From an uncultured Spirochaetia bacterium (lineage in GTDB: Bacteria > Spirochaetota > Brachyspiria > Brachyspirales > Brachyspiraceae): a stretch of DNA of 37,533 bases. The stretch is from contig CAMRCO010000010.1 in the NCBI GenBank assembly GCA_947040945.1, positions 1 through 37,533 on the forward strand, written 5' to 3'. Position 1 is the stretch's first letter. Each line of letters starts with the position of its first letter. Below the pieces are notes generated by a model that was not told the DNA's origin, made no database searches, and worked only from the letters and a program-made list of their open reading frames with translations. Shown here piece by piece: positions 16,744 through 20,046 of this stretch. A program made the position numbers and the translations under genes.

Positions 16744-16853
16744 TTATTAGTCAATATTAATATTTTGAGAATATAGAGAATGTTCTTGCTTGAATTTTTT
16801 TACTTGTAATATATTATGTTTTTTAATTAATTAATTTTATGTTGGAGTAATTT

Positions 16854-17714
16854 ATGGCTAGTAAAAAGAAGAAAAATACAAACACTAAAGAAATGAAAAT
16901 TTTACTACCAACAACAAAAATAAAAGAATCAGTTAAATGTAAAAATACAAAGCAAGCATATAAAATATTTCGTGACCTTCTTGATTATGAGGAATACGAA
17001 CTTAAAAGCCAAGAACATTTTTGGATTATGGGTATAGATTCTGCTGGCTATGTGGTGTGTGTTTACATTGCAGCCATTGGGTCTGAAAACAGAATGATTA
17101 TCGACCCCATAGACATTTTTAGTATAGCAATTGCTTGTAAAGCTAGGAAAGTTTTTCTTGCTCACAATCATCCAGACGACAACGAAGACACAGAGTTAAA
17201 ACTAAGTACTGCTGATTTTGATTTTACTAATAAACTTTATCATGCATGTTTGCCCTTTGGAATTACAATACTCGACCACATAATTTTGGGTGATAATATC
17301 TATTATAGTTTTTATGAAAATTCTTACATGGCTATGATTTATTCTGACAAGACACATAAAAGTTATCAGCTACTCGAACCTAAGTTGGAGGAAGAGAAAG
17401 AAACTTATGCGAGGATAAAAGAATTAAAAGGTAAACAAGAAGGACTTGTTGAGGGTAAGGAGATTGGAGAGCATGATAAAGCTGTTGAGATGGCTGAAAA
17501 AATGCTCGCAAAAAAAAGACCTATTGACGAGATACTTGAGTTTACGGGGCTTACGGTAAAAGATATTTATGACATTAAAGGCGGTGTTGATTATTTTATT
17601 GGTGTTGCTAAGAGCATGCTTGCTGATGGTCTTGATATATCTAAAGTTTCAAAATATACAAAACTTACTATAGAGGCTATTAAAAAAATAAAAAAAGATA
17701 TGGGTTTGTACTAA
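16854..17714 (+). CDS. RadC-like JAMM-domain protein with duplicated Rpn-type C-terminal tail
   Basis: 286-residue protein of unknown role. Residues about 25-170 form a RadC-type JAMM metalloprotease-like domain: IDPIDIFSIAIACKARKVFL is followed by HNHP, and S-T-A-D supplies the usual Ser and Asp ligands four residues later than in canonical RadC. ILDHIILGDNIYYSFYE closes the domain. The helix-hairpin-helix N terminus of standard RadC is absent. A charged helix (about 180-208) leads to two copies of a 38-residue repeat (K209-D246, Y247 to the end) with the pattern A-x2-ML-A-x4-I-x8-T-x-LT-x3-I-x2-IK. Such tails are usual at the end of Rpn/PD-(D/E)XK transposase-like proteins. GGAG precedes the ATG. 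A weak TTGCTT/TATATT promoter may lie at 16786-16815. Confidence 0.82.
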   Translation: MASKKKKNTNTKEMKILLPTTKIKESVKCKNTKQAYKIFRDLLDYEEYELKSQEHFWIMGIDSAGYVVCVYIAAIGSENRMIIDPIDIFSIAIACKARKVFLAHNHPDDNEDTELKLSTADFDFTNKLYHACLPFGITILDHIILGDNIYYSFYENSYMAMIYSDKTHKSYQLLEPKLEEEKETYARIKELKGKQEGLVEGKEIGEHDKAVEMAEKMLAKKRPIDEILEFTGLTVKDIYDIKGGVDYFIGVAKSMLADGLDISKVSKYTKLTIEAIKKIKKDMGLY

Positions 17715-17842
17715 ACCGTATCTGCTTCTGACTTCCAAGCTCGTACGTCTGTACAGTGGAACTACACTTAAGTTACATTTATGTTTGTTCGAAAGTGGAG
17801 AGCCCCATTCTGCTAAATACCCAAATGTTTTTGAGGAGCTAG

Positions 17843-17858
17843 TTGCGAGCTTGCGAGC
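17843..17858. repeat. Two tandem copies of TTGCGAGC
   Basis: The octamer TTGCGAGC occurs twice back to back (17843-17850, 17851-17858). It lies inside the GC-rich island left of the restriction-modification genes and within a GAGCT/AGCTC inverted pair. Confidence 0.75.
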
Positions 17859-18010
17859 TCTGTTGCCACAGGCACACAGACGTGCGACGCGACGCAAAAT
17901 ATTTATTTGCTTTATATAAGTGTATCTTGATATTAATGTAAGATATGGTAGTATATGTAAATTGATGAGGTATGATTTAATAAAATAACTGTTAATCATT
18001 CAGTAAAATA

Positions 18011-18060: not shown

Positions 18061-18104
18061 AAATAAATAATTAACAATAAGTTATCTTGTATGGAGTTAG
18101 TCAA

Positions 18105-19268
18105 GTGAAAATAATTTCTCTTTTTAGTGGCTGTGGTGGTTTAGATTTAGGATTTAAAAAAGCAGGTTTCAATATAGTTTGGGCTAATGATTTTGATAAA
18201 GATGCAGTTAAGACTTATCAAAAAAATTTAGGGATGGAAATAGTATTAGGAGATATAACAAAAATTAGTAGTAGTAATATCCCAGATAATCCTGATGTAG
18301 TTTTAGGCGGGTTTCCTTGTCAAGGATTTTCAGTAGCTAATAATAAAAGGTCTATGGAAGATAAGCGAAATTTTTTATATAAAGAGTTATTAAGAGTGGT
18401 AAAAGATAAAAAGCCTAAAGTCGTTTTAGGTGAAAATGTCAAAGGTATTTTATCTATGAATAAAGGAAAAGTCATAGATATGATAATATCAGATTTTAAA
18501 GATATAGGGTATAAATTAAAAGTATATAAAATAGATGCTTCAGAATATGATGTGCCACAAAAGAGAGAAAGAGTTTTATTTATTGCTGTAAAAAATAATA
18601 ATGAGTTTACATTAAACTTGAAAAAGAGTTCGAAAATAAAAACTGTTAAAGATACTATCTTTGATTTATATAATTTACCTATTAGCTATAATCCTATTAT
18701 TGATAACGATAGAATTATATATAATCATATTGCATCAACTAATGTACATGATAAATTTTGGGGTAGAAAATATAAAGTGAACCAATATGATATATGTGAT
18801 TATTTGAAAAAATGGAGAAAAAAAGCAGCCATTTCTACAAAAAAAATAGATGATATTTTTGGATATAAACATACAGCTGGGCATTGGTTTCGAAAAGATA
18901 ATAATTCAGGCAGTATTCCTAAACCAAGTGATTGGTGGAAACTGAAAGGAATATTGAAATTTGATGATACTTATGATAAGCATGTTACAGAATTAGAAGA
19001 AAAAGAAATTAAATTTGAACAATCATTAAGAATAACAAACTGGGATACTCCAAGCGATACTATAACTGCTACATCACCAGAAATACATATAAATAAACAA
19101 AGACGTTTATCAGTTAGAGAATGTGCTAGATTGCAAACTTTCCCTGATGATTTCATTTTCAAAGGTTCATTAAACAGTATGTATAGACAGATAGGTAATG
19201 CTGTGCCACCTGTTTTAAGTTTCAAACTTGCTACTCAAATTAAGGATTTTATAAAAAATGTTAACTAA
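18105..19268 (+). CDS. DNA (cytosine-5) methyltransferase of a type II R-M system
   Basis: Methylates cytosine C5 within the site cut by the adjacent nuclease. All main motifs are in order: I, FSGCGGLDLGF at the N terminus; IV, GGFPCQGFSVAN with the catalytic Cys; VI, ENVKG; VIII, QKRERVLFIA; a target-recognition region including GHWFRKDNNSGSIPKPSDWW; IX, RLSVRECARLQTFPDDF; X, QIGNAVPP. 387 residues is normal. I chose GTG at 18105 rather than TTG at 18087 because GGAG at 18093-18096 lies eight bases upstream and such enzymes begin just before motif I. The recognition region vaguely recalls NlaIV/NgoBV-type enzymes (GGNNCC), an uncertain memory. It overlaps the nuclease gene by 11 bp. Confidence 0.93.
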   Translation: MKIISLFSGCGGLDLGFKKAGFNIVWANDFDKDAVKTYQKNLGMEIVLGDITKISSSNIPDNPDVVLGGFPCQGFSVANNKRSMEDKRNFLYKELLRVVKDKKPKVVLGENVKGILSMNKGKVIDMIISDFKDIGYKLKVYKIDASEYDVPQKRERVLFIAVKNNNEFTLNLKKSSKIKTVKDTIFDLYNLPISYNPIIDNDRIIYNHIASTNVHDKFWGRKYKVNQYDICDYLKKWRKKAAISTKKIDDIFGYKHTAGHWFRKDNNSGSIPKPSDWWKLKGILKFDDTYDKHVTELEEKEIKFEQSLRITNWDTPSDTITATSPEIHINKQRRLSVRECARLQTFPDDFIFKGSLNSMYRQIGNAVPPVLSFKLATQIKDFIKNVN

Positions 19269-20046
19269 TCTTGAATTAGAAAAATTAGAATATAAATATC
19301 TAGAAAAATACTATTATTTTTTAAAATTTTCTATGGATGAAATATTGATAGGATTGAATAGTAAACAAAAAATTAAAAACGATTGGTTTGATATATGGAA
19401 TAAAGATAGCAATTCTAAACAAAGTTTTTCTGTAGGTGCGGAAAGAGTAATATATTATTATATTAGTAACTCTAGAATATTAGGAGAGCCTAATTCAAAT
19501 CCTGTTAGTTCTGACTTAATGTTTGAAGTAGCAGATGCTTTTGTTCATATAGACTTAAAAACTGTACAAACATCAAATATAGGAGATATAAGTACCAGTA
19601 TTTTTATAGGAAACAATCAAAATAGCTATAAGTCTAACGTTGATGTAGGAGGTAAAACTTTATTTTATGATAAAGCTAACTTACCTAAATACTATACTTT
19701 CGAAAATACTAAAAAGCCTTGCTTAACATACTTTATTACGATACTTCATGATAGTGATACGTTAGAGAATATGATGATTAATATTATGTGCATGCCTAAT
19801 GGACAGTTAGAAGAAGTTTATGGATCTAGTGTTTTGCAGGCAGGAAAAACTAAAGATAATATTGATAGAGATAATAATAAATTATCTACTGTTCGTTTTA
19901 AATTTTCAAAAAATGAATATTTCAAATTATTAGAAAATAAAAAGAGAATAAAGATTGCTTATTTGAATGATAATATTAAAAATAATGACATCTATTCTAG
20001 TAAATTAGAACATTTTATTAGAATACATTCAAATCAAAATGATTAA
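19258..20046 (+). CDS. Predicted type II restriction endonuclease
   Basis: 262-residue protein immediately after, and overlapping, a cytosine methyltransferase, the classic arrangement of a type II restriction pair. A PD-(D/E)XK-like core is suggested by SSDLMFEVADAFVHIDLKT (about residues 84-102), with acidic residues followed by D-L-K at the end of a beta strand. GNNQNSYKSNVDVGG follows. I do not recognise the subfamily with certainty; a resemblance to NlaIV/NgoBV-type enzymes is only an impression. AAGGA at 19242-19246 precedes the ATG. Composition is very AT- and Asn/Lys-rich, like the methyltransferase, which suggests that both arrived together. Confidence 0.78.
   Translation: MLTNLELEKLEYKYLEKYYYFLKFSMDEILIGLNSKQKIKNDWFDIWNKDSNSKQSFSVGAERVIYYYISNSRILGEPNSNPVSSDLMFEVADAFVHIDLKTVQTSNIGDISTSIFIGNNQNSYKSNVDVGGKTLFYDKANLPKYYTFENTKKPCLTYFITILHDSDTLENMMINIMCMPNGQLEEVYGSSVLQAGKTKDNIDRDNNKLSTVRFKFSKNEYFKLLENKKRIKIAYLNDNIKNNDIYSSKLEHFIRIHSNQND

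Follow-up and report, generated by a model that had tools for sequence, protein, structure and literature searches.

A RadC JAMM domain on an Rpn-type tail in a dispersed, multicopy protein family of uncultured Brachyspiraceae

Introduction

What does a RadC domain do when it sits on the C-terminal tail of an Rpn protein? This question is raised by one gene in the window that we analyzed, a stretch of 37,533 nucleotides from an uncultured Spirochaetia bacterium (contig C10 of genome G000, which comprises 2.17 Mb in 130 contigs). An earlier note, made from the sequence alone, described the gene's product as a RadC JAMM domain that keeps its metal site, lacks the helix-hairpin-helix (HhH), and ends in two copies of an Rpn-type tail, and suggested a mobile or defense role. 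We know of no RadC JAMM domain with an established activity; to our knowledge, RadC is a widespread bacterial family without settled biochemistry.

For comparison, we used G001, which belongs to the same genus as G000; G002, from a second genus of the same family; and 26 genomes of a third genus (g3), which we take to be probably Brachyspira. We refer to the proteins with this architecture as the RadC-RpnS family.

Results

The fusion gene

The gene, its expression signals, and the restriction-modification (RM) genes next to it are listed in Table 1. The promoter motif is weak if taken alone (10 found versus 7.2 expected), but it is kept among the copies in G000. An Rfam search of the window gave no match.

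Table 1. Features of the fusion gene and of the adjacent RM genes, in window coordinates
Feature	Position	Strand	Evidence or remark
Conserved leader (promoter, 5' untranslated region, and start)	16789-16859	+	Recurrence at contig ends
Sigma-70-like promoter TTGAAT-16-TATTAT, within leader	16790-16817	+	9 of 12 matches
Ribosome-binding site GGAG	16844-16847	+	6 nt 5' of ATG
RadC-RpnS fusion gene	16854-17714	+	286 aa; ATG start
RadC JAMM domain, residues 31-156	16944-17321	+	PF04002; 2QLC by profile and fold
Metal/catalytic codons	E54, 17013-17015; HNH 104-106, 17163-17171; S118-D121, 17205-17216	+	
Helical linker with four-residue (GxxxG) repeats	17367-17471	+	Model helix 171-193; likeness to Rpn tails
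RpnS-type tail copy 1, residues 207-242	17472-17579	+	TIGR01784; family tail model; tail identity to Rpn protein
RpnS-type tail copy 2	17592-17696	+	Tail-model match, residues 249-281; AlphaFold helix from 245
C5-cytosine DNA methyltransferase (type II RM)	18087-19268	+	PF00145, E = 2e-83; PADLOC MTase_II
Type II restriction enzyme gene	19258-20046	+	PADLOC REase_II PDLC03522, E = 2.9e-7

The head of the protein matches RadC (PF04002) with E = 2.4e-25 and 89.3 bits, against a cut-off of 22.1. A profile of 22 family members finds the RadC structure 2QLC in the PDB (E = 1.3e-16), and an AlphaFold2 model of the window protein, run on a shallow alignment of 22 sequences (mean pLDDT 76), matches 2QLC by Foldseek (E = 5e-10). 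In the alignment, the JAMM set of the window copy is complete: E54, H104, H106, S118, and D121. We take E54 to be the JAMM glutamate on the basis of the JAMM motif. A lost glutamate at the tyrosine of "CVYIAAIG", suggested by comparison with 2QLC, was considered and rejected: the housekeeping RadC rows vary at this position, and E54 (in "QEHFW") is conserved.

Aligned with the housekeeping RadC of G000 (L019, on contig C7), which has the HhH, the window protein has no such N-terminus. Full-length RadC models score below their cut-offs (TIGR00608, 71 bits versus 133.85; PRK00024, 83.9 bits versus 180). We found no match to a PD-(D/E)XK head in Pfam or NCBIfam.

The other end of the protein is homologous to the C-terminus of Rpn proteins. 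The Rpn model TIGR01784 matches two stretches of the tail (E = 7e-10), and the 22-member profile finds RpnA-S (7TH0) in the PDB (E = 1.3e-5). By Foldseek, the AlphaFold tail superimposes on 7TH0 with an rmsd of 0.5 Å over 33 residues (probability 0.99; E = 0.99, probably owing to the short stretch; which tail copy was aligned is not specified). The tail of a PD-(D/E)XK Rpn protein from g3 is 43% identical to that of the window protein over 51 residues. With a tail model made without the window protein, from the 21 remaining members, copy 1 scores 25.7 bits and copy 2 scores 38.3 bits; copy 2 alone scores 44 bits, as compared to a best score of 15 among 2,000 shuffles. By these scores, the duplication of the tail in the window protein is real; most paralogs have a single tail.

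The earlier note was right about the JAMM domain and its metal site, the missing HhH, and the doubled Rpn-type tail, and each of the two segments matched its own family. The architecture is directly established, as are the intact active-site set and, for head and tail alike, the homology and the match in structure.

The C-terminal domain of Rpn proteins is a dimeric bundle of three helices that HHpred relates to helix-turn-helix (HTH) motifs, and its first helix contains a variable number of four-residue repeats, which is a hallmark of Rpn; the domain is also made separately by translation and inhibits the nuclease (PMC10327210). Across the 22 copies of the RadC-RpnS family, there are 0 to 7 GxxxG steps ahead of the tail. 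Among these same 22 members, there is no conserved in-frame internal start with a Shine-Dalgarno sequence, so an intragenic RpnS start, as in the gene-within-gene antitoxin of Rpn, is unsupported. We also note that a DUF2887 protein from another genome of this phylum (G042, L103:4369-5190) has an Rpn-like tail, which makes it a further type of head on such a tail.

A paralogous family in place of Rpn nucleases

In the draft assemblies of the three genomes, where copy numbers are approximate, we found about 7 RadC-RpnS loci in G000 (several of them broken or ended by the edge of a contig), 2 in G001, and about 23 in G002. Across 393 genomes of the phylum, and among the matches listed, which include the strongest ones, a head and a tail occurred together in these three genomes only; searches beyond the phylum reached close relatives only. 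The PD-(D/E)XK head of Rpn (PF12784) is absent from G000 and G001, is present once in G002, and has 1-39 copies in 25 of the 26 g3 genomes, where the phylum search did not find the RadC fusion among the matches listed. From this distribution, we read RadC-RpnS as an extensive set of paralogs that takes the place of the PD-(D/E)XK Rpn proteins in the lineage of G000, G001, and G002. Part of the apparent replacement could reflect separate events, in which Rpn was lost and the fusion was gained independently.

The similarity of the heads is uncoupled from that of the tails. Heads that are 93% alike carry tails that are 52-58% alike, and heads that are 29-36% alike carry tails that are 81-87% alike (for instance, 93% and 52% for L085a and L087, and 29% and 87% for L082 and L083b). 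Shared blocks of about 90-100 bp at the DNA level agree with this pattern. Tails have been swapped between paralogs, and heads and tails have separate histories. We considered a recent exchange of tails, at the DNA level, with the PD-(D/E)XK Rpn of G002 and rejected it, as blastn gave no match to the single, broken Rpn gene in that genome.

The leader of the window gene is repeated, over 45-70 bp, at the ends of five more contigs of G000 (C110, C18, C32, C82, and C55), which suggests that G000 contains more, unassembled copies of the family. At the end of C32 (L136) and the start of C18 (L135), the leader precedes another, acidic ORF that begins MADLENEDDLENSEEDDHDLEFECYNYDDNE. Both contigs stop inside this MADLENE-type ORF, so it is probably multicopy as well.

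The heads of close paralogs have dN/dS ratios of 0.05-0.18. Together with the multicopy expansion in place of Rpn and the exchange of tails, this purifying selection is a direct observation.

Inverted repeats in G002

Could the gene be mainly selfish, or a passenger, on a mobile element that is built from repeats and disperses it as a cassette, with a protein that either promotes this dispersal or is of little use to the host? The number of dispersed loci in G002 would fit, as would the breaks of several G000 contigs at near-identical leaders and the presence of pseudogenes and internal-deletion remnants in the family. (One such derivative, at L096:3839-4012 on contig C5 of G002, has the family leader and first codons fused straight to an out-of-frame tail.) A further hint comes from a repeat, CAACTTAAGCSTACGYAGTA, which with up to 2 mismatches occurs at 63 sites in G002; 18 of these are no more than 500 bp from a family gene, versus about 1 expected. 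Using a 64-bp profile, and taking the comparison genes from the loci that we read, we found that 7 of 19 family genes in G002 lie between inverted halves of the repeat, as compared to 3 of 266 other genes (p = 2e-7). At several genes, the right half extends into the 3' end or the stop codon. Halves are also present as short palindromes that enclose no gene. More broadly, this is a palindromic, MITE-like intergenic repeat with the half-site ...AATGTGCAACTTAAGCCTACGCAGTAG (for example, L089:3965-4043, L089:4810-4929, and L112:382-494).

However, the repeat is missing from G000 and G001, and we found no convincing inverted ends at the window locus. A transposase between the repeats was also rejected, as the G002 intervals that we read hold ordinary genes, and we saw no target duplication on visual inspection. 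The purifying selection on the heads argues against this reading, and the related rpn genes are reported to lack inverted terminal repeats (PMC10327210). Overall, we consider a selfish cassette to be unlikely.

Activity of the head

E54, both histidines, and D121 are retained in 15 of the 22 family copies, including the window copy. In the other seven, at least one JAMM residue is lost: the HNH motif reads HNC in two, HNR in one, and HNQ in two, and another two combine R54 with YNV. The HNC pair has a dN/dS of 0.05, so heads are constrained even if the motif is altered. The cysteine of these heads may still bind metal.

The intact JAMM set of the window copy could mean that the head is a metallopeptidase like other JAB proteins, with a tail that dimerizes it or directs it to a protein substrate; the characterized JAB domains are indeed peptidases (PMC5512222). 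On the other hand, RadC JAB domains have been proposed to process nucleic acids, as they are unlikely to have a groove for a ubiquitin-like tail and they occupy the positions of nucleases in other architectures (PMC5512222). Nor did we notice a ubiquitin-like or E1/E2 partner beside the copies, in neighbors that were read and in part searched. We think that a peptidase is less likely still than a selfish cassette. A RadC domain that replaces the Rpn nuclease on a common tail is a further case of RadC in the position of a nuclease.

That some heads are deficient in the metal site and yet constrained might also be explained if the protein is a DNA-binding regulator, in which the HTH-like tail acts at the conserved leader and the RadC head serves for sensing or binding. 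The likeness of RpnS to HTH domains by HHpred (PMC10327210) and the retention of the leader before many copies and before the MADLENE gene would fit. But duplication alone would give a conserved leader, and the RpnS domain whose structure was solved is a module for dimerization and an antitoxin (PMC10327210), so this seems to us quite improbable.

Neighboring genes

The window copy lies 111 bp 3' of an oppF-like gene and 373 bp 5' of the C5 methyltransferase, and the restriction system that had been noticed next door is a type II RM pair. Its restriction enzyme gene has no match in Pfam or NCBIfam, and the fusion protein itself has no match in PADLOC. Two other copies also have defense genes beside them. 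A broken copy on contig C49 of G000 is directly upstream of an HpaII-type RM pair (L015:6913-9030), with a spacing of 193 bp. A copy on contig C144 (L078), which was binned with G002, has a DzbA-like gene 31 bp downstream. Over 549 bp, the RadC gene on C144 and that on contig C110 of G000 share 97% identity, so either it was recently transferred or the contig is misplaced.

We also note that the intergenic stretch downstream of the window gene (17715-17960) folds better than shuffled sequences (z = -2.1). Part of it (17764-17848) is matched at 82%, on the opposite strand, by sequence 3' of the DzbA-like locus (L078:520-606).

Defense genes adjoin 3 of about 24 resolved copies. The 20 or so others are solitary between housekeeping genes, such as those that we take, from reading their sequences, to be mnmG, purD, recN, dxr, and hisA. 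The expected association with mobile or defense genes holds only in part: it is seen at the three copies near defense genes, but not at most copies. We found no instance of the fusion being carried by a phage or plasmid. (No phage or plasmid match covers 80% of the query.) Phage origin was rejected, as there was no match in viral_contigs and the matches in phages and plasmids were partial and to RadC only. An indirect test for an empty site comes from G001: its opp operon and its dgt-glgA block lie on separate contigs, with no RadC or RM genes adjoining them.

A role as an accessory component of the adjoining RM systems is very improbable: a type II RM pair directly follows both the window copy and the C49 copy, but the two pairs differ in type and begin 373 and 193 bp away from the respective copy, the one on C49 is a broken gene, and RM genes are not found beside most copies.

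Discussion

A proposed role

We tentatively propose, with a little less than even confidence, that RadC-RpnS proteins are Rpn-like effectors whose nuclease head was replaced by a RadC JAMM head, which the tail restrains and which harms the infected cell once it is released. The PD-(D/E)XK head of an Rpn-like effector would have been exchanged for RadC. The three-helix domain of the RpnS type would dimerize and restrain the head, and the GxxxG repeats and exchangeable tails would decide recognition between paralogs. The head would most likely be released at phage infection or DNA stress and would then process nucleic acid, which would damage the infected cell; the nuclease chemistry and the defense role are both presumed. 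In the window copy, the doubled tail may act in cis as the inhibitory partner, because we found no internal start that would yield a short product on its own.

In favor of this proposal, we count the homology of head and tail, the JAMM set, the GxxxG repeats, the pattern of replacement, the dN/dS of the heads, the exchange of tails, the published proposal that RadC is a nuclease (PMC5512222), and the defense genes that directly follow three of the copies. Against it, we count the loss of JAMM residues in 7 of 22 copies, including a strongly constrained pair, and the location of most copies away from defense genes. The lack of an established activity for RadC JAMM domains, of an internal antitoxin start, and of a PADLOC match also count against it.

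We doubt, but consider worth stating, a more specific version: that the RadC JAMM domain acts as a toxin with nuclease activity and, in these spirochaetes, took over the chassis of the Rpn toxin-antitoxin systems, that exchange of tails and the number of repeats insulate the ~20 paralogs in a cell from each other, and that the tandem tails are a built-in antitoxin.

Finding RadC in place of the Rpn nuclease on a common tail is an argument for a comparable function of RadC. The assays that are already set up for Rpn (toxicity, DNA damage response, phage plating, and cleavage) become usable for the function of RadC. Also, with ~20 paralogs per genome, tail exchange and variation in repeat number amount to a natural experiment on the insulation of self-inhibiting effectors.

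Comparison with known systems

With RadC (UPF0758; PF04002, 2QLC), the window protein shares the JAMM core, the active-site residues, and the fold; it differs by lacking the HhH N-terminus and by having an additional linker and RpnS tails. Stand-alone RadC JAB genes of prophages and plasmids place the RadC domain in mobile elements (PMC5512222) and were also matched in our searches, but they do not have the RpnS tail.

The other relative is the Rpn family (COG5464, TIGR01784, PF12784/PF04754), which includes E. coli RpnA with its intragenic antitoxin RpnA-S (7TH0). Compared to Rpn, a RadC JAMM head replaces PD-(D/E)XK, no internal start was found, the tail is doubled in the window copy, and inverted repeats flank some copies in one genus (that of G002), unlike rpn genes. 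In common, the two families have the C-terminal three-helix domain and, preceding it, a helix in which four-residue repeats vary in number, and both consist of dispersed single genes in multiple copies with a patchy distribution.
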